Origin: Thermincola carboxydiphila
GTDB taxonomy: Bacteria; Bacillota; Thermincolia; Thermincolales; UBA2595
DNA length: 64,000 bases
Reading direction: 5' to 3'
NCBI GenBank assembly: GCA_016841725.1
Contig: JAENYP010000006.1
Span: 124,001 to 188,000 of the forward strand
Each line of letters begins with the position of its first letter. The first letter of the stretch is position 1. Of this stretch, positions 10,201 through 58,445 are shown piece by piece. The notes beneath the pieces were generated by a model that was not told where the DNA came from, ran no database searches, and worked only from the letters and a program-made list of their open reading frames with translations. The position numbers and the translations under genes were made by a program.

Positions 10201-11284
10201 TGCGTGGATTGAAACCTTGTCAATAAACAAAAAGCAATACTAGCTGATGTCGCACCCCCTGCGGGTGCGTGGATTGAAACACAATATGCCATATTAAAGA
10301 CTTATTACCGTAATTGTCGCACCCCCTGCGGGTGCGTGGATTGAAACCCGATGCAGCCCCGGCAGGGGCCGGGACATCTGCAGTCGCACCCCTGCGGGTG
10401 CGTGGATTGAAACATAGTAATGTCAATTAGTTTGTCGCGGGTCTTTAGTCGCACCCCCTGCGGGTGCGTGGATTGAAACTTCTTGCATCCAGTAGATTGA
10501 CCGATAGAATATTGTCGCACCCCCTGCGGGTGCGTGGATTGAAACTCATCTTTTTTAATTTCATCCTGGGGGTCATTCTGGTCGCACCCCCTGCGGGTGC
10601 GTGGATTGAAACCTGGGTAGTTTGGTGAGACAGGATGTAGCGTGGTGTCGCACCCCCTGCGGGTGCGTGGATTGAAACATCACAGAATCAATTATATGGT
10701 AGTTTATTTAGGTCGCACCCCCTGCGGGTGCGTGGATTGAAACCGTTTGGTTTGGATTCCGAGCCTCAATGCGAATGTCGCACCCCCTGCGGGTGCGTGG
10801 ATTGAAACAGATGTCATACCAGGCTGGAATTCTCCGTGTTTAGTCGCACCCCCTGCGGGTGCGTGGATTGAAACCATTTTAGCGGCCTATAATATCCCAG
10901 GTAAAAAACGTCGCACCCCCTGCGGGTGCGTGGATTGAAACTGGTAGGTCAAGCATTTCAGACTTTAGCCGCCGTCGCACCCCCTGCGGGTGCGTGGATT
11001 GAAACGGACAATATTACTGCGCAGGTCATAACAATGGTGTCGCACCCCCTGCGGGTGCGTGGATTGAAACATATGTTCAAACGTAAATATATATTTGACT
11101 GTGGTCGCACCCCCTGCGGGTGCGTGGATTGAAACTCTGTTAGAGATTCTATGAGAACGGAATTCAGGAGTCGCACCCCCTGCGGGTGCGTGGATTGAAA
11201 CATAATGTAGCCTCCTTTTATTTTCGGGTTAAGCGGTCGCACCCCCTGCGGGTGCGTGGATTGAAACTCACCGGCTCAAATTAA

Positions 11285-11404
<120 letters not shown>

Positions 11405-12951
11405 TAAGAGCTGCGTCCCGCTCCCGGTCTTCGTCGCACCCCCTGCGGGTGCGTGGATTGAAACAACTAGCCCACCTAACACCTTGGTAGCCAGTTGCGT
11501 CGCACCCCCTGCGGGTGCGTGGATTGAAACTAGGTAACAGTGATGGCAAGTAATTAACCGCTGAAGTCGCACCCCCTGCGGGTGCGTGGATTGAAACCAA
11601 ATGAGCGAAGAAGATTCCCACAAGTATTGGAAGTCGCACCCCCTGCGGGTGCGTGGATTGAAACACTGTTACAGTCACCGCTCCAGCCGATTGTGTAAGG
11701 TCGCACCCCCTGCGGGTGCGTGGATTGAAACCATACACACAGCACACCGCACACAAGCCCACTAAGTCGCACCCCCTGCGGGTGCGTGGATTGAAACATG
11801 GTATCATGGGTCAAGAACAGAAAATTCCCGGTCGCACCCCCTGCGGGTGCGTGGATTGAAACTCCAGTTCATCCACATCATCGGCATCATATATTGGGTC
11901 GCACCCCCTGCGGGTGCGTGGATTGAAACAAGAAATTTGGCTGCCACATCCCCAAACCGGACCCGTCGCACCCCCTGCGGGTGCGTGGATTGAAACACAA
12001 AGAGAGCTGGCATTAATGACAGGGATATCGTCGCACCCCCTGCGGGTGCGTGGATTGAAACCAAATAAGGAGTCACTGAAGTTTTCCATCTGCCTGGGTC
12101 GCACCCCCTGCGGGTGCGTGGATTGAAACTCCACCACCTTTTTAGTGGGCCACCCCAGGTAAATAAGTCGCACCCCCTGCGGGTGCGTGGATTGAAACTC
12201 TAGCAACAACAGTATCGGCAGTTGTGGCAATAGTCGCACCCCCTGCGGGTGCGTGGATTGAAACTTGACATACCAGGTCCACTGGTGGAGACCGGTAGTC
12301 GCACCCCCTGCGGGTGCGTGGATTGAAACTTGTTGGTAAAGTCAACAGTTTACAGTTTACAGAGTCGCACCCCCTGCGGGTGCGTGGATTGAAACCACTG
12401 CTTTGATTGCTGTAACCGATTGTACCACCGTCGCACCCCCTGCGGGTGCGTGGATTGAAACCCGCCCAGACATGAAAACATTGTCAACTGTGCCTGTCGC
12501 ACCCCCTGCGGGTGCGTGGATTGAAACACGATTTTAATTAACCTTTTACTCATTTTAAAAGTCGCACCCCCTGCGGGTGCGTGGATTGAAACTAAGAAAA
12601 GCTGATAATGGCGGGGCTATGATATGGTCGCACCCCCTGCGGGTGCGTGGATTGAAACCGGGTAGAGTACACGGCATAAGCACACCCCAGGGCCGTCGCA
12701 CCCCCTGCGGGTGCGTGGATTGAAACTGACATGATCTCTTTGCCCATATACGGGGCCTTGTCGCACCCCCTGCGGGTGCGTGGATTGAAACGATGCTGTA
12801 GCCCTCTGCGCCCATGACAACACCGTCGCACCCCCTGCGGGTGCGTGGATTGAAACTTACAAACTTTCATTCGGACCACTCCTTTGCTTTGTCGCACCCC
12901 CTGCGGGTGCGTGGATTGAAACCTCCCGGGCATTTACGCGACGTGTGATGA

Positions 12952-13245
<294 letters not shown>

Positions 13246-13913
13246 TGAAACAACCAAAGCATATCAGAACAGACGCAAACGGCAAAAGTCGCACCCCCTG
13301 CGGGTGCGTGGATTGAAACTGGAAATAATCAGGCCGATTGATGTTTTTTCTCTAGTCGCACCCCCTGCGGGTGCGTGGATTGAAACTAATGGTGGATACC
13401 CCAAAATGGCCAGCTTTTGATGTCGCACCCCCTGCGGGTGCGTGGATTGAAACTGATACCAATAGCAGACAAATAACCAAAACAACTGGTCGCACCCCCT
13501 GCGGGTGCGTGGATTGAAACTTGATATAGCAGATACTATGATAACATTCTACAAGTCGCACCCCCTGCGGGTGCGTGGATTGAAACTTATTGTATGTGCC
13601 AGTCTTAGGGTTTTTGCCAAGTCGCACCCCCTGCGGGTGCGTGGATTGAAACTATCCACTCAATCCTACCCAGGTCGCGTTTCTACGTCGCACCCCCTGC
13701 GGGTGCGTGGATTGAAACTCATAGAGGCCGGGTTTATATCGAATCCCCAGGTCGCACCCCCTGCGGGTGCGTGGATTGAAACTTCCTGGCACAGCCCAAC
13801 ATAGAAGTGAAGCAGGTCGCACCCCCTGCGGGTGCGTGGATTGAAACACCCCCAAAATTTAACACTATAAGGAGGAATTACGTCGCACCCCCTGCGGGTG
13901 CGTGGATTGAAAC

Positions 13914-13948
13914 CGGTCTCCTTTGCAATCTGGTGCCGGTTGATTCTC
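13914..13948 (+). repeat. CRISPR spacer, first copy of a duplicated spacer
   Basis: This 35-base spacer recurs exactly at 14511-14545, nine units further on, between different neighbours. On the reverse strand both read RINRHQIAKETG in one frame, which resembles part of a helix-turn-helix protein; that reading is only suggestive. Confidence 0.95.
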
Positions 13949-14510
13949 GTCGCACCCCCTGCGGGTGCGTGGATTGAAACTAATGCTTGTTTGCGTGTCA
14001 CTGATAAACCCCTCGTCGCACCCCCTGCGGGTGCGTGGATTGAAACTATTTTGTTGATGTTGTTCTGCATTTCCTGGCGGGTCGCACCCCCTGCGGGTGC
14101 GTGGATTGAAACCCAAACCTGCTTGCTATGCTTAATCATGTGATTACGTCGCACCCCCTGCGGGTGCGTGGATTGAAACCGGCTCAGGCCGGTCAGCCTT
14201 ATGACCTCAGTGAGTCGCACCCCCTGCGGGTGCGTGGATTGAAACCCAACAGCAGCCGCAGCACAGCCCACACATGCCCGTCGCACCCCCTGCGGGTGCG
14301 TGGATTGAAACAAGAATTATGAGCGAATTTTTGGGCATAAACCAAGGTCGCACCCCCTGCGGGTGCGTGGATTGAAACCAGTGCCAATGTTTCCTCTTTG
14401 TAAGTCATAGAAGTCGCACCCCCTGCGGGTGCGTGGATTGAAACCTCAATCACTCCGGGTACGATAATTACCCGCTGCGTCGCACCCCCTGCGGGTGCGT
14501 GGATTGAAAC

Positions 14511-14545
14511 CGGTCTCCTTTGCAATCTGGTGCCGGTTGATTCTC
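14511..14545 (+). repeat. CRISPR spacer, second copy
   Basis: Exact copy of the spacer at 13914-13948. The flanking spacers differ, so this is either a dispersed duplication by recombination between repeats or a repeated acquisition of the same protospacer. Confidence 0.95.
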
Positions 14546-15239
14546 GTCGCACCCCCTGCGGGTGCGTGGATTGAAACCAATGATGAGCTGTGGCAGGCTT
14601 TTTTTCGAAGTAAGTCGCACCCCCTGCGGGTGCGTGGATTGAAACAAAGATCGAAGCTATTTTGTTGGCTTATTTTGACGTCGCACCCCCTGCGGGTGCG
14701 TGGATTGAAACAAAATATATTGCAAGGCATCGTATCTGCCTCAAACGTCGCACCCCCTGCGGGTGCGTGGATTGAAACGTGACAGGATGAAAAAAGGCAC
14801 CCTTGATGCTGGTCGCACCCCCTGCGGGTGCGTGGATTGAAACGTCACTGTCACCTAATGTCCAGCAAGGCATTGTAGTCGCACCCCCTGCGGGTGCGTG
14901 GATTGAAACCAGCGTTACGAATCAGAAGGTACGGAATTAACTGTCGCACCCCCTGCGGGTGCGTGGATTGAAACTTTTGTTGAACAGAGATACAGGCAGA
15001 CTGGGTTATGGTCGCACCCCCTGCGGGTGCGTGGATTGAAACACTGTTAGCGGTGCGGCTGCAGAAATAAATCTGGTCGCACCCCCTGCGGGTGCGTGGA
15101 TTGAAACATTATAGCCGGCTTCGGCGAGCAGATCCCGCCGGTCGCACCCCCTGCGGGTGCGTGGATTGAAACGGACTATCAATAACAAACCTCCATATTC
15201 CCCGGGCGTCGCACCCCCTGCGGGTGCGTGGATTGAAAC

Positions 15240-15343
15240 CCACAGATTTAAAAACAAAAGACATGATGAGTCCGCGTCGCACCCCCTGCGGGTGCGTGGA
15301 TTGAAACCCACAGATTTAAAAACAAAAGACATGATGAGTCCGC
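15240..15343 (+). repeat. Tandemly duplicated CRISPR spacer
   Basis: The 36-base spacer at 15240-15275 is repeated exactly at 15308-15343 with one repeat between. This is a one-unit tandem duplication, most simply explained by unequal recombination or replication slippage between repeats. Confidence 0.97.
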
Positions 15344-16302
15344 GTCGCACCCCCTGCGGGTGCGTGGATTGAAACAGGCTATATGCCGTCATCCAGACGG
15401 ACCACCAAAAGTCGCACCCCCTGCGGGTGCGTGGATTGAAACCTTACAGATGTCTCATATAGTATATCAAAAGATAGTCGCACCCCCTGCGGGTGCGTGG
15501 ATTGAAACTGGATCAGGGCAGTAACCTCTTCATGCTCCGGAGGTCGCACCCCCTGCGGGTGCGTGGATTGAAACCTCTATGCTCATGTTTTTGATAAGTT
15601 CATAATTAGTCGCACCCCCTGCGGGTGCGTGGATTGAAACTTGTACAATCTCATTAACTTCATTAATCTTATGTGGTCGCACCCCCTGCGGGTGCGTGGA
15701 TTGAAACCAGGGAGACAGGAAGGGGCAAGAATATTTTGCGAGTCGCACCCCCTGCGGGTGCGTGGATTGAAACCACGGAAGGAGGTGACACCGCCGCCCG
15801 GTGCCCCCGGTCGCACCCCCTGCGGGTGCGTGGATTGAAACTGGCCCATAGATTTCTGTATGAGCAAATCAAAGGTCGCACCCCCTGCGGGTGCGTGGAT
15901 TGAAACGACTAAGGTAAAAGGGGCAATTGCCAATGCTTAAGTCGCACCCCCTGCGGGTGCGTGGATTGAAACACTGATCAGGATGCGGCCTTTAAGGTGC
16001 TCAAAGCGTCGCACCCCCTGCGGGTGCGTGGATTGAAACCCGCTACCGACATGGGTAACGGCCTGGAAGTGCGGTCGCACCCCCTGCGGGTGCGTGGATT
16101 GAAACAATCCCCCTTTCTTATTGACCACCGAACTGGAAGGTCGCACCCCCTGCGGGTGCGTGGATTGAAACATAAGTCTCTCTGTCAAAAATAGCCTGCT
16201 GCGCAGTCGCACCCCCTGCGGGTGCGTGGATTGAAACAGCAAAGCCAAGGGTGGCAAACCAGTTGAAAAAGTCGCACCCCCTGCGGGTGCGTGGATTGAA
16301 AC

Positions 16303-16366
16303 CCGGCTTAGTATTAAATCCTTTAGCGCCGCTGGTCTCACCCCCTGCGGGTGCGTGGATTGAAAC
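16303..16366 (+). repeat. CRISPR spacer plus variant repeat, copy 1
   Basis: The 32-base spacer is followed by a repeat starting GTCTCACC instead of GTCGCACC. The same spacer and the same variant repeat occur again at 17313-17376, so the pair was copied together rather than acquired twice. Confidence 0.95.
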
Positions 16367-17312
16367 AAGGTATTTCTGCAGCCATATCATACACTTTATG
16401 GTCGCACCCCCTGCGGGTGCGTGGATTGAAACTTCAGAGAGTCTGGGATATTGTCAAATCTGCCGGAGGTCGCACCCCCTGCGGGTGCGTGGATTGAAAC
16501 AAAGAGGATATAGAGCCCTGCCCAGGCCAAGGGGGTCGCACCCCCTTGCGGGTGCGTGGATTGAAACACGATAAAGCGTGAAATATGGCTTAAGAGATAT
16601 CTAGTCGCACCCCCTGCGGGTGCGTGGATTGAAACAAGAGATTAAGGCATTGGAGGTTGGGGATAAGTCGTCGCACCCCCTGCGGGTGCGTGGATTGAAA
16701 CAATGTCCCATACTCACCTCTGTATGACATGGGCGTCGCACCCCCTGCGGGTGCGTGGATTGAAACTGGCATAATAAAAAACCTTTCCACAATGGGCACG
16801 TCGCACCCCCTGCGGGTGCGTGGATTGAAACTGCCTGGTTACCCATGACTAAAACCCCCTCCGAGTCGCACCAACTCCGGAAGAGTCGCACCCCCTGCGG
16901 GTGCGTGGATTGAAACAATTGCAATCCAGTCATAAGTGCCAGTGTCAGGTACGTCGCACCCCCTGCGGGTGCGTGGATTGAAACCATAACTCCACAGTCA
17001 AAGTCGCGCCGGGGGGCAGGTCGCACCCCCTGCGGGTGCGTGGATTGAAACAGGCGAGCAACGAGCTGCGAAACGCCGAGCTTCGTCGCACCCCCTGCGG
17101 GTGCGTGGATTGAAACCTGTAATTAGCAGCTAATCCATTCATCTGCCAGGTCGCACCCCCTGCGGGTGCGTGGATTGAAACTGTGCATTGTTCGTATGCC
17201 TCCTGCAGATTTTTAGTCGCACCCCCTGCGGGTGCGTGGATTGAAACGTCACACTCCTTGCAAATTTTTACGTACCCTGCGTCGCACCCCCTGCGGGTGC
17301 GTGGATTGAAAC

Positions 17313-17376
17313 CCGGCTTAGTATTAAATCCTTTAGCGCCGCTGGTCTCACCCCCTGCGGGTGCGTGGATTGAAAC
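17313..17376 (+). repeat. CRISPR spacer plus variant repeat, copy 2
   Basis: Copy of 16303-16366, including the G-to-T change in the repeat. The next spacer differs from the one after copy 1. Confidence 0.95.
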
Positions 17377-17478
17377 ATCCTTTTCGGTGTATTCAACTTC
17401 ATATGTGTATGGTCGCACCCCCTGCGGGTGCGTGGGTTGAAACCATCGGGGCTCCGCTATTAATCAGATTCGTGGCAT

Positions 17479-39680: not shown

Positions 39681-40430
39681 CTAAGCCTCAAATATTTCGT
39701 CCACTGTAATCTCCAAACCCTCAAAGAAATAGGAAACTAAGGTGTCTCCTGCCTTATAGCCGGCGTATTCATCAATGTCAAAGTCTTTAAAGCCATATGC
39801 CAGGACTGAATGTTTTTTGGGATCGACAATCCAGAATTCCCTGACTCCTGACAGCATATATGTATTGAGCTTATCTACCATATCCTTTGTGCGGGTGCTT
39901 TTTGATAAAATTTCAATACACAGGGTGGGTGTACCCATATACCGCCCCTTTTCATTAACGGCATCCTTCAGATCACAGGCGATGAGCAGATCAGGCTGCA
40001 TTACATCCGGTGTCTCGAAGTCCTTTTTGAAAAAATGGACATCAAAAGGCGCATAAAATACCTTGCATTTGTTACCTTTTAGGTAAGTCCGCAGGTGGAT
40101 ATGCAGATTACCGGAAATATCCTGGTGAAAAGTGTCAGGTGAAGCTAAAAGAACTATTTCGCCATTGATGTATTCCATTCTGAGGTCACTTTTCTCATAA
40201 ATTTCCATAAACTCTTCATAAGATACCTTCTTGCCGCCGTATTGATAATCCAGAGCATTTTCCTTGACCATGAAATATCGGTCGATTTCTGTAATATATG
40301 GAGTGAGTCGTACGGATTTCTTGCCGTTTTTGGTAACCACAACCTCATGGTTTTCAGTGACATAGTCAATGTACTTGCCCAGATTAGTCTTGAATTCTGT
40401 TGCGGTAACAACTTTTGTTGTATCATTCAT
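39681..40430 (-). CDS. Phd-type antitoxin domain fused to Uma2 nuclease-like domain
   Basis: The start MNDTTKVVTATEFKTNLG at 40430 follows gaggtg; the ORF-track GTG is three codons upstream. Residues of about 6-55 are a Phd/YefM DNA-binding domain (EFKTNLGKYIDYV, VVVTKNGKKSVRL). Residues of about 75-249 are a Uma2 domain (LRMEYINGEIVLLASP, VMQPDLLIACDL, TLCIEILSKSTRTKDMVDKL) with the putative PD-(D/E)xK residues D and E-x-x-S in place. Such a fusion puts an autoregulatory antitoxin head on a nuclease-like body. No separate toxin gene is next to it. A 22-base palindrome upstream is a likely operator. Confidence 0.82.
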   Translation of the reverse strand: MNDTTKVVTATEFKTNLGKYIDYVTENHEVVVTKNGKKSVRLTPYITEIDRYFMVKENALDYQYGGKKVSYEEFMEIYEKSDLRMEYINGEIVLLASPDTFHQDISGNLHIHLRTYLKGNKCKVFYAPFDVHFFKKDFETPDVMQPDLLIACDLKDAVNEKGRYMGTPTLCIEILSKSTRTKDMVDKLNTYMLSGVREFWIVDPKKHSVLAYGFKDFDIDEYAGYKAGDTLVSYFFEGLEITVDEIFEA

Positions 40431-40450
40431 ATTTATCACCTCGTACGAAA

Positions 40451-42521: not shown

Positions 42522-45500
42522 ATGAAAAAGATATTACGGTTACTTTTTCTGACCAATATTGTTGCTGTACTGATATTGTTGGGACAGGCATGCTTGTCTC
42601 CGGTTCTGTCTGCTGCAGAAGCTGGGGAAATCAATATGGAAACAGTGAGTGGAGACGGTGCAGGCTATACTTATTTGGACAGTGTTGTCACAATCACTCA
42701 GGATGGCAGCTATATCCTTACCGGCACAGGAACTGAGACAGCAAACCGAATTGTGGTCAATGGCGGCGTAACAGCTGATATTACAATAAATAGTGTGAAC
42801 ATTAATTCGGGCAGCGGGGCTTTTGTTATGACCGGGGCAACGGTGAACCTCACCCTGAGCGGCAGCAACACTCTCAGAAGCGGAAGTGGATTTGCCGGCC
42901 TGCAGGTTTGTAGTGGAATACTTACTATTACCCAGACCAGTACAGGCAGTCTGACAGTGTATGGCGGCTATAACTCTGCGGGAATCGGGGCGCCGGACAG
43001 GGTTAGGCCTAATACAGGCACAATTATAATTGAGGGTGGCACGGTCAACGCAAACGGCGGAACATACGGCGCAGGTATCGGTGGAGGGTTATACAGTGAA
43101 TATGGCACCATCATCATCAGGGGTGGCAGTATAACCGCCAATGGTACGACTTCGGCGGCCGGTTTAGGCGGCGGTGATTATAATTACCCTGGGACAATCA
43201 CTATTGAAGGTGGCACAGTGACCGCAAACGGTGGCTATAATGGTGCAGGCATCGGCGGCGGCTGTGACGGGGTAGGCGGTATTATAAATATCCTGGGTGG
43301 TACGGTCAACGCAAACGCCGGAACCAACGGTGCCGGCATAGGCTGCGGACGGGGCGGCAGCCCACGCAGGGCTGCCGGAGGCACAGTAACTGTATCCGGA
43401 GGTAATACTGTTGTGAATGCACGCGGCAGTGGCAGCGGAAAAGATATCGGCTCAGGAGATAATTATGACCAAACTATCAGGGATGGCGGGACACTTACGG
43501 TTGATGACAGCGCCACGGTTAACCTGAATGCGACCGGAACAGATGCACAGACAGATTTTATCACCTGTACAATCAGTGGCGGGGGAGCGGGACTTCACTC
43601 CGGGACTTATTTGAATGGGCATAAAAAAATTACTTTAAGCAGCTTTACCGCTCTGCCCAATAGTCAGGTAAATGCCTTGGATAATATTACTTTTTCGGTA
43701 AATGTTAATGGGCTCTCCTATACTGATCCACAAGGGAGTATTTCCTTTAAGGCCAATGGGGCTGAAATCGCAAGTACCCCCATCACCCGTGAAGGTGTGG
43801 TTGCAGCCGGTACAGCCGGTATAAGTAAAAGTGATGTTCCCGGCGGCAGTTACACATTTATCGCGGAATATGTTCAGGACAGTGTTGACAGCTATTATAC
43901 TGCTGATGTGTTACAGATTACGGGTTATACTGTGAATAAGCTTAATCAGGCTTTGCTGCTGAGCGGCATTCCAGATACCATAACGTACGGTGATGCAGCT
44001 TTTGACATGGTTGTCAGCGGGACAGGCGGTACGGGTTTATTGAGCTTTAATGTTACTTCCGGTGATGCTGTTACAGTGAGTGGGAGTGGTGCAGTTACCA
44101 TATTAAAGGCAGGAACGGCTGAAATTACCGTAACCAAAGCAGGTGACGATTATTATAATGGGGCTTCGGCCACTGTCTCAATTGTTGTAAATAAAGCCAT
44201 CCCCGAGGCGGTAATATTCCCAGCCGCTTCACTCACCTACGGTCAGAGTCTTGGGGAGGCTGTGCTTACGGGCGCTGCGGGCGATGGCAGCTTTGCCTGG
44301 CAGGACGCTGCTGCTGTCCCGCCGGTACAGAATGCAGGATATCAAATGGTGTTCACCCCCGCTGATTCTGTAAATTTTGATTATTCCGGGGTTGTGCTGC
44401 AGCAGATTGTAACCACGATAGTAGAGAAAAAAGACTTAACCATCAAAGCCGCAGATAAGACCAAGGTCTATGGAGAATCAGACCCCCTGTTCACAGAAAG
44501 CTATATGGGATTTGTCAATGGTGAGGATAAGAGCAGTTTGACCGGTATCCTTGCCCTGACCCGCCAGGAGGGTGAAAATGCCGGGACATATACCATCACA
44601 CCATCGGGGCTGACCTCCGCAAACTACAATATCATTTATCAGACAGGCCAACTGGAGATTACACCGACAGCCTTAACCATTGCCGCTGATGCCGAAAGCA
44701 AGATTTACGGCGAGCCGGACCCGGAGCTTACTTATGTGATAACAGCAGGTACATTGCTGGGAGCTGATGGAATCACCGGAGCCTTAACCAGGATAGCCGG
44801 TGAGAATTTGGGGACCTATATGATAGAACAGGGCACTTTGACTGCCGGAATTAATTATGACATCACCTATACCGGAGCAAGCCTGACCATCAATAAAAAG
44901 GCCTTAACCATTAGAACAGAGGATAAGAGCAAGGTTTACGGGGCGGCTGATCCCGCTTATACAATAAGCTGTAACGGGTTTATCGCAGGTGAGGATGAAA
45001 GCGACCTTCACGGAACACTTGCCTTTGACCGTGCAGAAGGTGAGGATGTGGGCGAATATACCATTACACCTTCGGGCCTGACCTCGCTTAACTACGAAAT
45101 TACTTATGAAACAGGAGCATTAACAATCAATAAGACAACTTTAACCATAAAAGCAGAAGATAAGAGCAAGGTTTACGGAGCGGCTGACCCTGTTTTTACA
45201 GTCAGCTATGATGGGTTTATAACCGGGGAGGATGATAACGTTCTTGACGGTATCCTTGCCCTGACACGTCAAGAGGGTGAAAATGCCGGGACATATACCA
45301 TCACACCATCGGGGCTGACCTCCGCAAACTACAATATCATTTATCAGACAGGCCAACTGGAGATTACACCGATAGCCTTAACCATTACCGCGGATGCCGG
45401 AAGCAAAATTTACGGCGAGCCGGATCCGGAGCTTACCTATGTGATAACAGCAGGTGCATTGCTGGGAGCTGATGGAATTACCGGAGCCTTAACCAGGATA

Positions 45501-47621
45501 GCCGGTGAGAATTCAGGGACATATATGATAGAACAGGGGACCCTGAGTGCCGGCATTAACTATGACATCACTTATGCCGGAGCAGTCCTGAACATCACTA
45601 AGAAGACCCTGACCATTAGAGCCGGGGATAAGAGCAAAGTTTACGGGGCGGCTGATCCCGCTTATACAATAAGCTGTGACGGGTTTATCGCAGGTGAGAA
45701 TGAAAGCGACCTGCTCGGAACACTTGCATTTGACCGCACAGAAGGTGAGGATGTGGGTGAATATTCCATTACACCTTCAGGCCTGACCTCGGTTAACTAC
45801 GAAATTACTTATGAAACAGGAATACTAACTGTCGATAAGAAAGCTTTATCCATTAGGGCAGAAGATAAAAGCAAGGTTTACGGAGCGGCTGATCCTGTCT
45901 TTACGGTTACATACGATGGATTGATAACAGGAGAGGATGAAGAAAATCTAAGCGGAACACTTGCCTTAGACCGTGCAGAAGGTGAAGATGCAGGCACTTA
46001 TACTATTACACCTTCGGGCCTGAGTTCGAATAATTACGAGATCACCTTCATACCGGGAACTTTGCGGATTTTAAGCACTAATGCCCACCTGAGCAACCTT
46101 TCCCTCAGTAATCCGGCTTTGAACCTAAATAATTTAACCTTCAGCCCTGCTTTTGATTCCGGAATAACGAATTATATTGCCGGTGTGGCGAATCGTGTGG
46201 GAAGCATTACTGTCACACTCATGGCGGAGGACAGCAATGCCAGCATCAGCATCAATGGTTTATCGGTATCCACTGGACAGGCTTCCGATGACATCATCCT
46301 GAATACTGGCCTTAATACCATCAACGTTATGGTGACAGCGGAGGATGTAGTAACTACAAAAACCTATCTTGTGACCATTAAGCGAAGCCATGGCGGCAGC
46401 AGTACCATCCCTCAGCCCGAGCCGGAGCCTGTGGCAGAAATTTCGGAGCAGCTTACAGGAGGGACTTTTGACAGTGCAACAGGAAATGTATCTGCATCAG
46501 TGGATGATAAGCTGCTTGAATACCTCTTTGGAAAGGCTGAAGCCGGTGAAGGAGCAAGAAAAACTATCCGACTGGTGATTCCTGAGGTAGAAGCAGCAAG
46601 TTCATATACCCTCGAAGCTTCTGTGACGGGATTGTCTTCCACCGGAACGGATAAAGAAATGCTGTTAACGACTCCCTTAGGCACAATCGGCATACCTGAT
46701 GACATGCTGACAGGATTGGAAGACGCGGCAGGAGAAAAAGCGGCTGTTACCATAGGCCGGGGGGACAAGGCCAGCATGTCCGCTGATGTGAAAGCAGCAC
46801 TTGGTGACCGTCCGCTGGTACAGCTTTCCCTGACCATAGACGGCCGACAGGTGGCGTGGAACAATCCGGATGCTCCGGTAACCGTTTCTATTCCTTATAC
46901 ACCTACAGCAGCAGAACAGCAGGACCTGGAACATATTGTTGTCTGGTACATTGATGGAAGCGGAAAAGCAGTATTGGTGCCCAGCGGCCGTTATGACCCG
47001 GAGACTGGATACGTGACCTTTACCACCACCCATTTCAGCAACTATGCAGTGGCCTTTGTATATAAAACTTTTGGTGACCTGTCCCGTGTGGAATGGGCCC
47101 GGAAACCCATTGAAGTCATGGCCTCAAAGGGCATCATCAACGGGACCGGAGCGGATACCTACTTACCGGCTGCCAATATAACCAGAGCTGATTATCTGGT
47201 GCTGCTGGTAAAAACCCTGGGTCTGACAGCTGACTTTGACGGCAACTTTAGTGATGTGGCATCTGGGACATACTACTATGAAGCCGTTGGCATTGCCAAA
47301 GAACTCGGCATTACCGCCGGCAGCGGAAGGAACCGGTTTAGCCCGAATGAGAAAATTTCCAGGCAGGACATGATGGTATTGACAGCCCGTGCCCTGGAGG
47401 AATCCAAAGGGCTAAAGATATTAGGCGACTCTACCGTGTTGGATCAATTCAGTGACAAAAATGATATAGCCGGCTACAGCGCAGAAAGTCTGGCGGCACT
47501 TGTCAGTGAAGGTCTTATTACAGGCTCGGGGGATAAGCTGAACCCACGCGCTAATACTACCCGTGCCGAAGCAGCAGTATTCCTTTACAGAATTTACACA
47601 GACCGTTTCTCAAATCGGTGA
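42522..47621 (+). CDS. Large SLH-anchored surface protein with seven MBG repeats
   Basis: Surface protein of 1699 residues, start ATG after gaggggg. A signal peptide (MKKILRLLFLTNIVAVLILL) leads into a Gly/Asn/Thr-rich beta-helix-like region to about 340 (IEGGTVNANGGTYGAGIGGG type repeats). An Ig-like region follows. Seven MBG-type units lie at about 636-1183, each starting like LTIKAEDKSKVYGAADP. A cadherin-like beta-sandwich follows at about 1185-1287. Three SLH domains end the protein from about 1513 (WARKPIEVMASKGIINGTG; ITRADYLVLLVKTLGL) and should bind secondary wall polymer. Likely role is adhesion or S-layer decoration. Blocks of the MBG region are almost identical at the DNA level. 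Confidence 0.9.
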   Translation: MKKILRLLFLTNIVAVLILLGQACLSPVLSAAEAGEINMETVSGDGAGYTYLDSVVTITQDGSYILTGTGTETANRIVVNGGVTADITINSVNINSGSGAFVMTGATVNLTLSGSNTLRSGSGFAGLQVCSGILTITQTSTGSLTVYGGYNSAGIGAPDRVRPNTGTIIIEGGTVNANGGTYGAGIGGGLYSEYGTIIIRGGSITANGTTSAAGLGGGDYNYPGTITIEGGTVTANGGYNGAGIGGGCDGVGGIINILGGTVNANAGTNGAGIGCGRGGSPRRAAGGTVTVSGGNTVVNARGSGSGKDIGSGDNYDQTIRDGGTLTVDDSATVNLNATGTDAQTDFITCTISGGGAGLHSGTYLNGHKKITLSSFTALPNSQVNALDNITFSVNVNGLSYTDPQGSISFKANGAEIASTPITREGVVAAGTAGISKSDVPGGSYTFIAEYVQDSVDSYYTADVLQITGYTVNKLNQALLLSGIPDTITYGDAAFDMVVSGTGGTGLLSFNVTSGDAVTVSGSGAVTILKAGTAEITVTKAGDDYYNGASATVSIVVNKAIPEAVIFPAASLTYGQSLGEAVLTGAAGDGSFAWQDAAAVPPVQNAGYQMVFTPADSVNFDYSGVVLQQIVTTIVEKKDLTIKAADKTKVYGESDPLFTESYMGFVNGEDKSSLTGILALTRQEGENAGTYTITPSGLTSANYNIIYQTGQLEITPTALTIAADAESKIYGEPDPELTYVITAGTLLGADGITGALTRIAGENLGTYMIEQGTLTAGINYDITYTGASLTINKKALTIRTEDKSKVYGAADPAYTISCNGFIAGEDESDLHGTLAFDRAEGEDVGEYTITPSGLTSLNYEITYETGALTINKTTLTIKAEDKSKVYGAADPVFTVSYDGFITGEDDNVLDGILALTRQEGENAGTYTITPSGLTSANYNIIYQTGQLEITPIALTITADAGSKIYGEPDPELTYVITAGALLGADGITGALTRIAGENSGTYMIEQGTLSAGINYDITYAGAVLNITKKTLTIRAGDKSKVYGAADPAYTISCDGFIAGENESDLLGTLAFDRTEGEDVGEYSITPSGLTSVNYEITYETGILTVDKKALSIRAEDKSKVYGAADPVFTVTYDGLITGEDEENLSGTLALDRAEGEDAGTYTITPSGLSSNNYEITFIPGTLRILSTNAHLSNLSLSNPALNLNNLTFSPAFDSGITNYIAGVANRVGSITVTLMAEDSNASISINGLSVSTGQASDDIILNTGLNTINVMVTAEDVVTTKTYLVTIKRSHGGSSTIPQPEPEPVAEISEQLTGGTFDSATGNVSASVDDKLLEYLFGKAEAGEGARKTIRLVIPEVEAASSYTLEASVTGLSSTGTDKEMLLTTPLGTIGIPDDMLTGLEDAAGEKAAVTIGRGDKASMSADVKAALGDRPLVQLSLTIDGRQVAWNNPDAPVTVSIPYTPTAAEQQDLEHIVVWYIDGSGKAVLVPSGRYDPETGYVTFTTTHFSNYAVAFVYKTFGDLSRVEWARKPIEVMASKGIINGTGADTYLPAANITRADYLVLLVKTLGLTADFDGNFSDVASGTYYYEAVGIAKELGITAGSGRNRFSPNEKISRQDMMVLTARALEESKGLKILGDSTVLDQFSDKNDIAGYSAESLAALVSEGLITGSGDKLNPRANTTRAEAAVFLYRIYTDRFSNR
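44560..45400 (+). repeat. Near-identical internal DNA duplication in the MBG region
   Basis: A stretch of about 105 bases near 44567-44671 (from GAGGGTGAAAATGCCGGGAC) is repeated without visible change near 45275-45379, about 708 bases later. That distance spans about three MBG units. Weaker similarity extends beyond. It indicates recent block duplication or gene conversion. Confidence 0.8.
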
Positions 47622-47673
47622 TTAACTTTTTGACCCGACAAACATTAGAGGAGCAATAAATGAGAGTTTTACT

Positions 47674-48307
47674 GGCAAAGAGGATCCTCCCAGTATTGTT
47701 ACCAGGACACTGGGTGTAAGCTTATTGCCCGGTGAAGGCTTATTCTGCAGAGTTATAACAGGTGGGATTATTGAAAAGTGAGGAGAGGTCACTAAAGCTT
47801 GATTGAAAGAATTAAGACCATCAATGCTGATAAGGTCTTAGATGTAAATCTGATAATTGAGACTTTGGAGAAAATAACTACAGCAGTTATGCAGCAAAGA
47901 GACGATACCAGTACACACATTCCAACAGAAATAATGTATAGGGACGGTAACTATGTTGCAAAAATAAACAGTCTGAGGGTATAGGCAATAATCAGTTTGA
48001 GCCTGACCGCGAGGTAACCAGGGGAGAATTTGCCCTGATGCTGGTTACCGGACTGGGACTGCACAGAGCGCTGGAAGGAGAGGACGTATTCCTGGATGTT
48101 ATCTCAAACTGGGCAAGATATTCAATGGACTCAGGGATTAAACTCGGAATAATAAATGGCGACAAAGACAGTATTATGCCGCAAAGAAGTGCTACAAGGG
48201 CTGAATGTATCGTCATAATAGAAAGACTCTTAAAAACTTCGGAACTGATAAACAGGGAAACAGTTGTGGTCTGCCACAAGGCTCCTAACTATAGTAAACC
48301 GAAATAA
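47674..48307 (+). pseudogene. Decayed SLH-domain surface protein
   Basis: Three pieces in different frames read like one surface protein. At 47674-47779 is SIVTRTLGVSLLPGEGLFCR. At 47799-47984 is a segment ending THIPTEIMYRDGNYVAKINS, which resembles the linker before SLH domains in clostridial proteins. At 47985-48307 is NNQFEPDREVTRGEFALML, then IKLGIINGDKDSIMPQRSAT, one complete and one partial SLH repeat. The expected WHPLEF...HWA segment between the last two is missing. Two ORF-track genes (47799 and 48038) are parts of this wreck, though either could still be translated. Confidence 0.72.
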
Positions 48308-48453
48308 ATCATAATCAACTCAAAGGGGTCGTGGGCAACATCGCAGCAGAGATGCCGGTTATCAAAATGGAAGTTTCTGTGATATAATATAAAGGAAAAG
48401 CCATCTGATAAATGGGCAATGAATAAGACGGTGGGAAGAAATGCAGTGAAAAA

Positions 48454-48513
48454 ATGCAGGAAAAGGTGCGAGAAGAAGTGCAAGAAAAAGTGCAAGAAAA
48501 AGTGCAAGAAAAA
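48454..48513 (+). repeat. Tandem 12-base repeat inside the MNT gene
   Basis: Five 12-base units, the last three identical (GTGCAAGAAAAA), encode VQEK copies. Because the unit is a multiple of three, length can vary by slippage without frameshift. Confidence 0.9.
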
Positions 48514-48912
48514 GTGCTGGAATTGGCTAAACGTTTTCAACTTAATTTACTGATTTTACTGGGCAGCTATGATACCGGTGATTTTAGGCCGGGAGAAAGT
48601 GATATTGACATAGCTTATTTAGGTGATGAGATAAAAGGGATTGAGAGGCAATTAGAGTTCATGAATGAGTTATCCCGAATTTTTAAGTACAGCAAAATAG
48701 ACTTGATTGATTTACAGAAAGCCTCCGGATTATTAAAGTATGAGATTGCTGTCAAGGGAAGGGTCCTGTTTGAGCGTTCTGAAGGATTATTTGAAAGGTA
48801 TAAGCTGTATTGTTACCGTTATTATTATGATACCGATAAATTCCGGCAGGGGAAAAAGGAATTTTTCCGGGAACAGTTGGAGGGGTTATTGAATGGTCAA
48901 AATAGAGCTTGA
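48454..48912 (+). CDS. MNT-domain nucleotidyltransferase antitoxin
   Basis: MntA-type antitoxins AMPylate a tyrosine of the partner HEPN toxin. The 152-residue protein has the nucleotidyltransferase motif GS (37-38) and D50-I-D52 in GSYDTGDFRPGESDIDIAYL, one residue longer between the parts than the commonest GS-x10-DxD spacing. The first 20 residues are a run of VQEK-type repeats encoded by 12-base DNA repeats, a likely helical extension. The ribosome binding site is weak. It overlaps the HEPN gene by 20 bases. Antitoxin before toxin is one of the usual orders. Confidence 0.83.
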   Translation: MQEKVREEVQEKVQEKVQEKVLELAKRFQLNLLILLGSYDTGDFRPGESDIDIAYLGDEIKGIERQLEFMNELSRIFKYSKIDLIDLQKASGLLKYEIAVKGRVLFERSEGLFERYKLYCYRYYYDTDKFRQGKKEFFREQLEGLLNGQNRA

Positions 48913-49321
48913 GATTATTTTGGAGAAAATGGCTGCTTTACAGGGATATTATAAGGAATTAAAGGGACTGGAGCATATTTCATTTGAAGAGTATATGCAA
49001 AATAATCTTTATAAGCGAACGGTAGAGCGAATCATACAACTTATTGTCGAGGCAGCGACAGATATTAATAATATGCTGTTAAAAAGCTTAGATAAAGGCC
49101 CAACTGTTGACTACTATTCTTCGTTTATTGAGTTGGCGGAAGCCGGAATACTGCCGGTGGAATTCGCCATAAGCATAGCCCCGTCGACAGGGCTTAGAAA
49201 CATAATTGTCCATGAATACCAAAAGATAGATGACCGTAAAGTCCATAGTTCGATAAAATATACCCTTGATTACTATTTGAAATATATGAAGCTGATAAAT
49301 GATTACCTTAAGATAACCTGA
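48893..49321 (+). CDS. HEPN-domain ribonuclease toxin (DUF86/HepT-like)
   Basis: HepT-type toxins are RNases with an R-x4-6-H catalytic motif. This 142-residue protein has R102-N-I-I-V-H107-E-Y109, which is the R-x4-H-x-Y form; the Tyr is the residue AMPylated by MntA in characterised pairs. The rest is all-helical, including NLYKRTVERIIQLIVEAATD, a typical DUF86 segment. ATG start overlapping the MNT gene. A terminator follows at 49399, so the pair forms a closed operon. Confidence 0.88.
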   Translation: MVKIELEIILEKMAALQGYYKELKGLEHISFEEYMQNNLYKRTVERIIQLIVEAATDINNMLLKSLDKGPTVDYYSSFIELAEAGILPVEFAISIAPSTGLRNIIVHEYQKIDDRKVHSSIKYTLDYYLKYMKLINDYLKIT

Positions 49322-49398
49322 GACATATGTACTATCTCCGGGCCGAAATACCTCCTGAAAACAAAGAATACGAGGTAGACCGTTAACGGTTGTAAGCA

Positions 49399-49457
49399 AG
49401 TCCAACATCAGGTGACTGATAGCATTTGATGTTGGGCTTTTTATTTTTTTTAGTCGT
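49399..49457 (+). terminator. Terminator of the MNT-HEPN operon
   Basis: CCAACATCA pairs with TGATGTTGG over a long loop and is followed by gctttttatttttttt. Confidence 0.7.
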
Positions 49458-49534
49458 GTAGACATCTCTGACCATTCACCCATCTCTGCCTGCTTCAGTA
49501 TACTGTAATAGGGACTTGAAAGGGGGGGAGAGCA

Positions 49535-50302
49535 TTGAACAATGTTGTGGAGCTGAATGACATCGGAATGAAATACCAGTCCCTCAATGGAGAGATCCCT
49601 GCCCTGGAGCACATCAGTCTGAAGGTTCGCCAAGGGGAGTTTGTAAGTATTGTCGGTCCCAGCGGCTGTGGGAAATCGACCCTTTTATCGATAGTTTCCG
49701 GATTATTGCGCCCTACATCAGGCAGCGTTTTTGTAGAGAGTGAAAAGGTAATGGGCCCATCAAAAAAGATTGGCTATATGCTGCAAAAAGACCATTTGTT
49801 TGATTGGAGAACCATCACCCAGAATGTCCTTCTTGGCCTGGAAATTCAAAAAGCCGTTACGCCTGAAGCCAAGGAATATGCCGAACGTCTTCTTGTAACC
49901 TATGGTCTCTCTGAGTTCGGCCATAAGTACCCCAGCCAGCTTTCGGGGGGGATGAGACAGCGTGCTGCCCTTATTCGTACTCTGGTCACCAATCCACAGA
50001 TACTGCTTTTGGATGAAGCTTTTTCAGCACTGGATTATCAAACCCGTCTTGCTGTGAATGACGATATTTATGCCATCATAAAAAAAGAAAACAAAACAGC
50101 AATCATGGTTACCCATGATATTGCTGAAAGTATCAGCATGGCCGACCGGGTCATTGTCCTCACCCGCAGGCCGGGGACGGTAAAGAGCTGCCACACGATC
50201 ATATTCGGTTTGGACAAACGAACTCCCTTAAAATCAAGAAAGGTGCCTGAGTTCCAGACATATTTTGAGCAGATATGGAAGGAGCTGGACGTCCATGTTT
50301 AA
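49535..50302 (+). CDS. ABC importer ATP-binding protein (SsuB/TauB/ThiZ-like)
   Basis: Energises uptake by the permease and binding protein that follow. Starts with TTG after aggggggggag. The 255-residue protein has Walker A GPSGCGKST, Q-loop YMLQKDHLFDWRTI, signature LSGGMRQRAAL, Walker B ILLLDEAFSALD and H-loop MVTHDIAES. The QKDHLFDWRT form is typical of the nitrate/sulfonate/taurine/thiamin-precursor group. Overlaps the permease by 8 bases. Confidence 0.92.
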   Translation: MNNVVELNDIGMKYQSLNGEIPALEHISLKVRQGEFVSIVGPSGCGKSTLLSIVSGLLRPTSGSVFVESEKVMGPSKKIGYMLQKDHLFDWRTITQNVLLGLEIQKAVTPEAKEYAERLLVTYGLSEFGHKYPSQLSGGMRQRAALIRTLVTNPQILLLDEAFSALDYQTRLAVNDDIYAIIKKENKTAIMVTHDIAESISMADRVIVLTRRPGTVKSCHTIIFGLDKRTPLKSRKVPEFQTYFEQIWKELDVHV

Positions 50303-51134
50303 GCACCAAAAAAATTCAGTTGCATTACAGCCTCTGCCCATTTCCCCGGAACATCGGGATTACTTAAAACATGTCCGGCGTCAAAAAATCATGGTCGGAT
50401 TCACACAAGTTTTTATTTTAATCCTGGCCTTTGGTTTATGGGAGATTTGCGCGGCCTGCAAATTCGTGGACCCCTTTATCACCAGCCAGCCTTCGCGGGT
50501 TTTCAAGACCATGCTTATGCTCCACCAGGAAGGAGTGCTTATTGAACATATTGCTGTGACCTGCCTGGAAACCGTTATCGGCTTTGTCCTCGGAACGGTA
50601 TTGGGGACAATAGCAGCTATCGTATTATGGTGGTCAGAATTCATTTCCAAGGTTTCAGAACCTTATCTTGTCATCTTGAACAGCCTTCCTAAAATAGCTT
50701 TGGGACCCATTTTTATTGTCTGGATCGGAGCAGGGCCTGCCGCGATTATCGTGATGACCCTGGCTATTTCCCTGATTGTCACTATTCTTGAAGTACTGAA
50801 TGGCTTTTTGGCCATTGATAAGGAAAAGATCAAGCTTGTGCAGACATTTGGGGGTACCAAGCTTCAGGTGATGGCCAAAGTTATTCTCCCCGCGTCCCTG
50901 CCCACCATCATCAATGCATTGAAAATCAATGTCGGGTTATCCTGGGTCGGTGTAATCGTAGGCGAGTTTTTGGTTTCTAAAGCCGGATTAGGGTATCTAA
51001 TTGTTTATGGAGGGCAGGTTTTTAAGCTGGATCTGGTGATGACCAGTGTCTTAATCCTTGGTGTTGCTGCAGCATTAATGTACCAGGGGGTGGTTTACCT
51101 TGAAAAAATGCTTGTTAAAAGGCAGGGGCAATGA
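50295..51134 (+). CDS. ABC importer permease (SsuC/TauC/ThiX-like)
   Basis: Membrane subunit with about six transmembrane segments. The ATG at 50295 (MFKHQKNSVALQPLP) after aaggag is preferred to the ORF-track start, which lies deeper inside the ATPase gene. The BPD_transp_1 region contains LVILNSLPKIALGPIFIVW, a hallmark of this permease group, and the EAA-like loop with TFGGTKLQVMAKVILPASLP. Length 279. The substrate is set by the lipoprotein encoded 45 bp downstream. Confidence 0.92.
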   Translation: MFKHQKNSVALQPLPISPEHRDYLKHVRRQKIMVGFTQVFILILAFGLWEICAACKFVDPFITSQPSRVFKTMLMLHQEGVLIEHIAVTCLETVIGFVLGTVLGTIAAIVLWWSEFISKVSEPYLVILNSLPKIALGPIFIVWIGAGPAAIIVMTLAISLIVTILEVLNGFLAIDKEKIKLVQTFGGTKLQVMAKVILPASLPTIINALKINVGLSWVGVIVGEFLVSKAGLGYLIVYGGQVFKLDLVMTSVLILGVAAALMYQGVVYLEKMLVKRQGQ

Positions 51135-51179
51135 CTCGAAAAAATCAGATGAATTTAAAACAAGAAAGGGAGGGTAAAT

Positions 51180-52196
51180 ATGAAGAGGAAATGGTTTTTC
51201 TTCTTTCTTATTGCAATAATACTGGGAGCATTCTTAGGGATAAGCGGGTGCAGCCAACAAAACTCCCAGCATCAGCTAACAAAAATTCAGCTATCTGAAG
51301 TCACCCATTCCGTTTTTTATGCACCTCAATATGTTGCTTTAAGTCAGGGTTTCTTTGAGGAAGAAGGTCTGAAGATTGAGCTCTCTAACGGTCAGGGTGC
51401 CGATAAGGTCATGACCGCAGTACTGACCGGACAGGCAGATATAGGCTTTGCCGGGCCGGAAGCCAGTGTCTATGTCTATAATGAAGGAAAAGAAGATAAC
51501 AGTGTAGTCTTTGCCCAACTGACAAATGGTGATGGAACATTTTTAATGGGCAGGGAACCTGATCCCGATTTTAAATGGAGTGATGTTAAGGGTAAGACTA
51601 TTATCGGCGGGCGCAAAGGCGGAATGCCTGAAGTAATACTCCAGTATGTGCTGCGCAATAATGGCCTGAAACCTGGTGAAGATGTAATGATTGACACGAC
51701 CATGCAATTTGCAGCCATGCCAGGAGCCTTCATTGGGGGCCAGGGAGACTATGTCATTATCTTTGAGCCCACAGCATCACAGATGGAGAAAGAAGGGAAA
51801 GCCTATATCCTGGCCTCTTTGGGAAAATCCAGCGGAGAGGTACCTTATACAGCCTATTTTGCCCGGAAAAGCTATATTGAGCAAAACCCGGAAATCATTC
51901 AAAAGTTTACAAACGCTATCTATAAAGGACAGCGCTGGGTGGATACCCACACACCTGAAAAAATTGCCCAGGTCATCAAACCACATTTCCCTGACGCCGA
52001 CACTGAAATCTTAACGACTGTTGTCAAACGCTATAAAGAGCAAAATACATGGAAGAAGGACCCGATCCTCTCAGAGAATGATCTTGGGGTCCTGCAAAAG
52101 GCCCTTCAGGATGCCGGCGAACTTCAAAAAACGGCCCCCTACTCTGAAATTGTAACAACAAAATTCGCTGAGACCGCTATTGAAAACATAAGATGA
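51180..52196 (+). CDS. ABC importer substrate-binding lipoprotein (NMT1/SsuA/ThiY-like)
   Basis: The 338-residue protein has a lipoprotein signal with lipobox LGISGC (Cys24), so it is anchored to the outer face of the membrane. The mature part has the NMT1/THI5-like pattern (VTHSVFYAPQYVALSQGFFEEEGL, GQADIGFAGPEASVYVYNEG, YFARKSYIEQNP). These proteins bind small organic solutes such as sulfonates, taurine or thiamin pyrimidine precursors; the exact one cannot be chosen. The start follows aaagggagg. A similar gene order is common for such importers in Clostridia. Confidence 0.9.
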   Translation: MKRKWFFFFLIAIILGAFLGISGCSQQNSQHQLTKIQLSEVTHSVFYAPQYVALSQGFFEEEGLKIELSNGQGADKVMTAVLTGQADIGFAGPEASVYVYNEGKEDNSVVFAQLTNGDGTFLMGREPDPDFKWSDVKGKTIIGGRKGGMPEVILQYVLRNNGLKPGEDVMIDTTMQFAAMPGAFIGGQGDYVIIFEPTASQMEKEGKAYILASLGKSSGEVPYTAYFARKSYIEQNPEIIQKFTNAIYKGQRWVDTHTPEKIAQVIKPHFPDADTEILTTVVKRYKEQNTWKKDPILSENDLGVLQKALQDAGELQKTAPYSEIVTTKFAETAIENIR

Positions 52197-52197
52197 A

Positions 52198-52284
52198 GAA
52201 ATTACGGTAGGGGCAAATATTGCTTACATCAGGGTAACAGCACAGGACGGAACAACACAGAAGACAAACTACCGGTATGAAACC
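52198..52284 (+). pseudogene. Fragment of a cadherin-like beta-sandwich domain
   Basis: Directly after the binding-protein stop, the frame reads ITVGANIAYIRVTAQDGTTQ, resembling the end of a cadherin-like beta-sandwich unit such as the one in the 42522 protein. It has no start of its own. It may be a leftover of a deleted surface-protein gene. Confidence 0.5.
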
Positions 52285-56840: not shown

Positions 56841-58445
56841 TTGATTACAAAAAAATGTTTTTTGAAGTCTGCAAAAGTAATGATAATATTTACTTTCTTA
56901 ATATTATCATTACTTGTATTGAGTGCGGTACCTGTATATGCAGCTTCTACTTGGGAAACGGTAGGCAGTACAGGATTTTCCGCAGGGTGGTCAGAGTATA
57001 CCTCAATGGCCATGGACAGCAGCGGAAAGCCTTACGTGGTATATCAGGATGACGGAAATGGTCTAAAGGCAACAGTGATGAAGTATAATGGAACCAGTTG
57101 GCAAGCCGTAGGAGATCCAGGGTTTTCAGCAGGTATGGTACGTTATACTTCAATAGCGATAGACGGTAGTGGGATGCCTTATGTGGTATATAGAGATGAG
57201 GCAAATGATAATAAGGCAACAGTGATGAAGTATAATGGAACCAGTTGGCAAGTCGTAGGAAACGCAGGCTTCTCCGCAGGTACGGCTGATTATACTTCAA
57301 TAGCAATAGACGACAACGGAACCCCTTATGTGGTATATCAAGACGGAGGAAATGACGTCAAAGCTACGGTTATGAAGTATAATGGAACCAGTTGGGAAGC
57401 GGTAGGAAGTGCAGGTTTCTCACCAGGAGGGGTAGAGTATACGTCGATAGCTATAGACAATAGTGGGAAATTATATGTCGCCTACAGGGACGGTTATGAG
57501 CTTTATAATAATAAGGCAACAGTGATGAAGTATAATGGAACCAGTTGGGAAGCCATAGGAAACCCGGGATTTTCAGCAGGTAAAGCAGCATATACTTCAT
57601 TAGCCATAGATGATACCGGGACACTTTATGTGGCTTATCAGGATCTTGGAATGGATTATAAAGCCACAGTAATGACGTACAGTGGGAATAGTTGGGAAGT
57701 AGTGGGAAATGCAGGTTTTTCACCAAGCTGGGCAGTTACTACTTCAATAGCCATAGACGGCAGCGGAACCCCTTATGTAGCATATAAAGACGTAGGAAGC
57801 AATGATAAAGCTTCAGTAATGAAGTATAATGGAACACGTTGGGAAAGCGTAGGCAGTCCAGGTTTTTCAGCAGGTGGAACAAATTATACTTCAATAGCGA
57901 TTGACGGTAGTGGAGTGCTTTATGTGGCATATATGGATGGCGAAAACAGTGGGAAGACAACAGTGATGAAGTATGGCTCAACAGTTCCCGCTGCAACAAC
58001 TCCACCTGTTACAGGCATTATGGCAACCAAATCAAATGTTAATGTTATTGTAAATGGCAAAGCAGTCAGTTTTGATGCTTACAACATAAATGGTAACAAT
58101 TATTTCAAGCTTCGTGACATTGCTATGGCTTTAAATAGTTCTAATAAACAGTTTGAAATAACATGGGATAATACGGCAAAAGCCATTAATCTAATTGGCC
58201 AAAAGGCTTATTCACCTGTTGGCGGGGAACTTAGTATGACTACAGGGCCATCTAAAACAGAGGCAAAGTTGTCAACCGCAACAGTACTGTTAAATAGCCA
58301 AGAGATATCTGTAGTAGCATACAACATCAACGGCAACAATTACTTTAAGCTTCGTGACTTGGGAAAAACCCTAAACTTTGGAATTACTTGGGATGGTACT
58401 ACACAGACGATAGGAATTGATGCATCGAGTAATTATGTTGAGTGA
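56841..58445 (+). CDS. Secreted beta-propeller-like repeat protein with two stalk domains
   Basis: 534 residues; TTG start after aaaggagg. A signal peptide (IIFTFLILSLLVLSAVPVYA) precedes about eight repeats of roughly 45 residues, each like YTSIAIDGSGTPYVVYQD followed by ATVMKYNGTSWEVVG. These look like propeller blades. Two copper amine oxidase N-like units end the protein (AYNINGNNYFKLRDIAMAL and AYNINGNNYFKLRDLGKTL). The repeats are close in sequence at both DNA and protein level, so the number of blades may vary between strains. The function is unknown; a surface or sugar-binding role is conceivable. Confidence 0.8.
   Translation: MITKKCFLKSAKVMIIFTFLILSLLVLSAVPVYAASTWETVGSTGFSAGWSEYTSMAMDSSGKPYVVYQDDGNGLKATVMKYNGTSWQAVGDPGFSAGMVRYTSIAIDGSGMPYVVYRDEANDNKATVMKYNGTSWQVVGNAGFSAGTADYTSIAIDDNGTPYVVYQDGGNDVKATVMKYNGTSWEAVGSAGFSPGGVEYTSIAIDNSGKLYVAYRDGYELYNNKATVMKYNGTSWEAIGNPGFSAGKAAYTSLAIDDTGTLYVAYQDLGMDYKATVMTYSGNSWEVVGNAGFSPSWAVTTSIAIDGSGTPYVAYKDVGSNDKASVMKYNGTRWESVGSPGFSAGGTNYTSIAIDGSGVLYVAYMDGENSGKTTVMKYGSTVPAATTPPVTGIMATKSNVNVIVNGKAVSFDAYNINGNNYFKLRDIAMALNSSNKQFEITWDNTAKAINLIGQKAYSPVGGELSMTTGPSKTEAKLSTATVLLNSQEISVVAYNINGNNYFKLRDLGKTLNFGITWDGTTQTIGIDASSNYVE

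Follow-up and report, generated by a model that had tools for sequence, protein, structure and literature searches.

A predicted type VII HepT-MntA toxin-antitoxin operon of Thermincola carboxydiphila whose antitoxin gene opens with a 12-nt repeat array

AMPylation of the toxin HepT by its antitoxin MntA has been shown for Shewanella and for other relatives. Three described HEPN/MNT pairs offer the closest comparison for the locus presented here: HepT-MntA from Aphanizomenon flos-aquae (7ae2/7ae9), SO_3166/SO_3165 from Shewanella oneidensis (5yep, 7bxo; PMC7641770), and the HEPN-MNT pair from Legionella pneumophila (8xeh, 8xeo; PMC11586414). The locus lies in a 64,000-nt stretch of the T. carboxydiphila genome (hereafter, the window, to which all coordinates refer unless another locus is named), and its features are collected in Table 1.

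Table 1. Features of the mntA-hepT locus and their window coordinates
Feature	Coordinates	Strand	Evidence
Promoter-like site, TTATCA-18-TATAAT, extended -10 TG	48359..48388	+	Consensus scan
Shine-Dalgarno-like region GGTGGGAAGAA	48430..48440	+	Alignment to GGTGAGAAAAA, which precedes the sister-species start; -6.8 kcal/mol, spacing 5 to ATG 48441
Two-codon mini-ORF ATG CAG TGA within the 13-nt first unit	48441..48449	+	Sequence
Five 12-nt units, MQEK VREE VQEK VQEK VQEK, then VLEL	48454..48513	+	
mntA, MNT-domain adenylyltransferase antitoxin (predicted), 152 aa, opening at ATG 48454	48454..48912	+	Pfam Polbeta 5.6e-17; NCBIfam NF047752; fold match to MntA structures
hepT, HEPN RNase toxin (predicted), 142 aa	48893..49321	+	Pfam HepT-like 6.5e-27; NCBIfam NF047751; phmmer to 7ae9 chain A 1.8e-24
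Intrinsic-terminator-like hairpin, 17-pair stem, T tail TTTATTTTTT	49398..49439	+	

Regarding the identity of the two proteins, the antitoxin scored 79.5 bits against the NCBIfam equivalog for type VII MntA and the toxin scored 99 bits against that for type VII HepT, with a cut-off of 60 for each; the MNT-HEPN pair proposed in a preliminary description of this DNA was thus borne out, and so was its report of an intact R-x4-H-x-Y motif in the toxin, whose residues are R102, H107, and, as that description had it, Y109. By sequence, both proteins find their best PDB matches in MntA-HepT pairs, those of the 7ae2/7ae9 and 5yep families. The toxin aligns over residues 3-139 with the same residues of the A. 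flos-aquae HepT, which has the same motif with its Tyr also at position 109; the A. flos-aquae antitoxin shares the fold of the window protein, but it has ten residues between GS and DxD and is devoid of N-terminal four-residue repeats. The S. oneidensis pair has the same domains and motifs, and its MntA gave the best fold match for the antitoxin (E 6.7e-9, TM normalised to target 0.79); the two antitoxins differ, however, in their sequence (21-27% identity over the fold alignment), in the GSx10DxD spacing of the Shewanella protein, and in its lack of repeats. Finally, the L. pneumophila MNT has the same core fold without the C-terminal α4 helix, whereas the model of the window antitoxin has a long C-terminal helix at residues 112-151.

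The catalytic residues of the antitoxin are complete and correspond to G37, S38, D50, D52, and the third Asp, D83; the GS, the DxD, and the third Asp are invariant or nearly so across 52 sequences. The two reading frames share 20 nt, and they are adjacent on the same strand between one promoter-like and one terminator-like site, as in a single operon; the region upstream of mntA (48365-48437) has 82% identity with that of a sister species of the same genus (G002). Judged from its sequence, the locus is a complete, ordinary type VII toxin-antitoxin operon composed of a HepT RNase and a MntA adenylyltransferase, and the pair is expected to act in the way already known for this type: by homology, HepT would be a HEPN ribonuclease, and MntA would neutralise it by modifying Tyr109, beside the RNase motif, with AMP groups taken from ATP.

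As for the spacing between GS (residues 37-38) and DxD (50-52), a published census of HEPN/MNT pairs demanded GSX10DXD (PMC7641770), and the window antitoxin, with 11 intervening residues, departs from this exact motif of the class I pairs. The preliminary description had pointed to the 11 residues in place of 10; the count is confirmed, but it is not peculiar, as spacings of 11 are usual in this part of the family. Among 57 relatives, the spacing is 10 in 47, 11 in two, and 12 in eight; more members with 11 residues are L121 (a gene of L003), L125 (a gene of L004), L128, and L129, and the members with 12 residues L040, L041, L044, L045, and L047 adjoin HEPN genes with the motif RNILVHEY. Because relatives share GSx11, it was ruled out that this spacing is unique or that it inactivates the protein. 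The length of this loop evidently varies inside the family, so strict GSx10DxD scans miss these antitoxins and overlook real MntA proteins.

Regarding the start of the antitoxin gene, TRF detected a tandem array at 48448-48517 with period 12, 5.8 copies, 86% matches, and a score of 105; the 12-nt periodicity had 34 matches out of 36, compared with a best value of 26 in 10,000 shuffles of the same bases. From ATG 48454, the units are, in order, ATGCAGGAAAAG, GTGCGAGAAGAA, GTGCAAGAAAAA three times, and GTGCTGGAATTG. Five VQEK-type repeats had been described at this place, and both their coordinates and their type hold; what had been missed is an additional 13-nt unit, ATGCAGTGAAAAA, located directly 5' of the ATG at 48441-48453 and out of the antitoxin frame. 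Counting this unit and GTGCTGGAATTG, the array totals seven units, while in the sister species, the one other genome compared for this count, four units occupy the same chromosomal site: ATGCAAGATAAA, GTGCAAGAAAAA, ACGCAGGAAAAA, and ATGCAGGAATTG.

The best 12-nt self-match before GS is 0.94 in the window and 0.83 in the sister species, against a maximum of 0.58 in 57 more distant MntAs, and the repeats were accordingly ruled out as a family-wide trait. The nearest repeat-free relatives are L004, which starts MQEIARQYGLKL, and L039, which includes VQEIAKAFGLKL; both align with the last unit of the array, which in the sister species is MQELAQRFQLNL. Copies of the repeat were sought elsewhere in the genome, with only one weak match (3 mismatches), and a literature search on repeats in MntA found nothing. 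In the simplest history, the repeats probably arose in this lineage by in-frame duplication of the first codons of the antitoxin, (A/G)TG CAG GAA; if so, the locus neatly illustrates a familiar kind of toxin-antitoxin system with an antitoxin N-terminus that grew in this manner.

The coiled N-terminal tail suggested in the preliminary description did not survive modelling. The AlphaFold model of the antitoxin (52 sequences, mean pLDDT 91) has a continuous helix at residues 2-27 that leads on to the domain's first strand, with block means of 86/91/97, and this corresponds to the usual first MNT helix, lengthened; a coiled or disordered tail was ruled out on the high confidence of this helix, allowing for the tendency of AlphaFold to build helices from sequence of this kind. 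The residues preceding GS are 21-44 in the 57 relatives (median ~27), 28 in the sister species, and 36 in the window if counted from 48454, so most of the putative tail would be normal helix. In the model, the repeats make up part of the ordinary first MNT helix, to which they would add at most ~9 residues, or about two turns.

The sister allele shares with that of the window the chromosomal site, the promoter region, and the VQEK-type repeats, and it differs in its number of units, in its in-frame start, and in its broken toxin gene. The two antitoxins are 89% identical. Synonymous divergence between the two toxin-antitoxin pairs is dS ~0.8, against 0.01-0.18 for the flanking genes at the same site, and the alleles have a dN/dS of 0.05 in the antitoxin core and 0.08 in the toxin. 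These substitution rates indicate that the two alleles began to diverge long before their surroundings did, and that both genes have been under purifying selection for most of the divergence time; one of the alleles was probably replaced through recombination. Taken over window positions 48454-49256 and positions 9954-10740 of the sister locus L031, the contrast in dS suggests either that an allele was replaced or that the two pairs reached this site independently. The sister hepT (L031 10380-10740) is broken, with an internal TGA and its 3' end lost in a deletion of ~3 kb, and the intact sister mntA beside it is an orphan antitoxin.

As for the start codon, the antitoxin of the sister species opens with GGTGAG-AAAAA-ATG, with a Shine-Dalgarno duplex energy of -7.7 kcal/mol, and its in-frame ATG aligns with window position 48441. 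In the window, the 13-nt length of the first unit places CAG TGA directly after the ATG at this position; the resulting two-codon ORF ends 4 nt 5' of ATG 48454, and it leaves the start of the window antitoxin uncertain: it would be either ATG 48454 or GTG 48478, hence with 36 or 28 residues before GS. The predicted N-terminus is MQEKVREE... from the former and MQEKVQEKVQEK... from the latter, and a start at GTG 48478 yields MQEKVQEKVQEKVLELAKRF, equal in length to MQDKVQEKTQEKMQELAQRF of the sister species. The duplex energies are -6.8 kcal/mol for the mini-ORF, -4.4 for ATG 48454, -7.3 for GTG 48478, and -2.5 for GTG 48514. The additional base that makes the first unit 13 nt long may stem from an error in sequencing or assembly. 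Leader RNA structure gave no signal (z -1.1).

The reading preferred here, and considered likely, is that of a type VII operon in which the in-frame repeats extend the first helix, with a near-neutral or mildly tuning effect, and in which translation starts at 48454 or 48478. The repeats would encode a charged extension of the normal first MNT helix, the helix itself being predicted; since the units keep the frame and most of them carry their own ATG or GTG, the gain or loss of a unit would be mild in its effect, lengthening or shortening the helix by roughly one turn while the enzyme and toxin binding stay largely unaffected. A +1 indel in the window allele would have moved the ancestral start out of frame, and translation would most likely proceed from ATG 48454, possibly coupled to the mini-ORF, or from GTG 48478, for which the better Shine-Dalgarno pairing and the N-terminal length of the sister protein speak. 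A more dynamic role, that of a contingency locus in which frequent slippage within a population tunes antitoxin activity or stability and the ease of toxin release, appears very unlikely. Three identical tandem units do point to recent duplication, and the sister species has four units instead of seven; however, the alleles are so old (dS ~0.8) that a difference of three units requires no rapid slippage, and the repeats are located in what the model depicts as an ordinary helix. Moreover, the unit length of 12 nt is a multiple of three and the array lies inside the reading frame, so gain or loss of units keeps the frame, and on/off phase variation by frame switching was ruled out.

The array also spans the initiation site, and indels or slippage could shift or multiply the starts, with the mini-ORF setting the level of the antitoxin. 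This control at translation is rated improbable, even though the start aligned with that of the sister species, now ATG CAG TGA, has good Shine-Dalgarno pairing, stronger than that of ATG 48454 and surpassed by that of GTG 48478. A two-codon ORF just 5' of a toxin-antitoxin gene has a counterpart in axe-txe, where such a minigene raises toxin translation and its distance is critical (PMC8708949); that minigene, however, acts on the toxin gene of a type II system and not on an antitoxin gene, while the effect of the window mini-ORF, which precedes the antitoxin, is putative. In addition, the mini-ORF occurs in one genome only, is missing from the sister species, and may reflect a sequencing error or plain decay. 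A related version, in which gain or loss of units and indels in a start-codon repeat array move initiation and the mini-ORF of the shifted unit sets the antitoxin:toxin ratio, is held to be quite doubtful; if true, it would offer evolution a simple way of retuning an antitoxin. Lastly, the repeats might be untranslated 5' sequence, with MntA beginning at the last unit (GTG 48514) like the relative starting MQEIARQYG, the repeat-free L004, which appears to begin there; the last unit of the sister species likewise has an ATG with AGGA close upstream. Such a start, beyond all repeats, is unlikely: GTG 48514 has the weakest pairing in the window and leaves 16 residues before GS, compared with 21-44 in the 57 relatives, and in the sister species the first ATG has the best signal, with the repeats then in frame.

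Regarding its surroundings, the operon is flanked on one side by a gene for an S-layer-type protein (42522-47621) and on the other by an ABC transporter (49535-52196). The sister species is without ~695 bp of the window at this spot (47671-48364), and without 49257-52279, which comprises the last residues of the toxin and the transporter; another genome of the genus (G001) and one of the same family (G005) have homology that begins only at 49463 or 49473, on the side of the transporter. This distribution is consistent with an insertion of the operon upstream of the ABC transporter. Carriage by a phage or plasmid was rejected, as the operon had no phage match and its two plasmid matches were weak.

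The segment at 47671-48364 resembles a degraded coding sequence of the S-layer-homology type, and it has no Pfam match. Elsewhere in the window, a single ORF at 39684-40433 on the reverse strand looks like an antitoxin-nuclease fusion, with matches to a Phd/YefM antitoxin domain at residues 7-46 and to a Uma2 nuclease domain at residues 73-244. The tandem-repeat table also revealed a very long CRISPR array region at 7330-17443, with the repeat GTCGCACCCCCTGCGGGTGCGTGGATTGAAAC, and 147-bp tandem repeats occur at 56951-57933 within an ORF that has beta-propeller-like matches.
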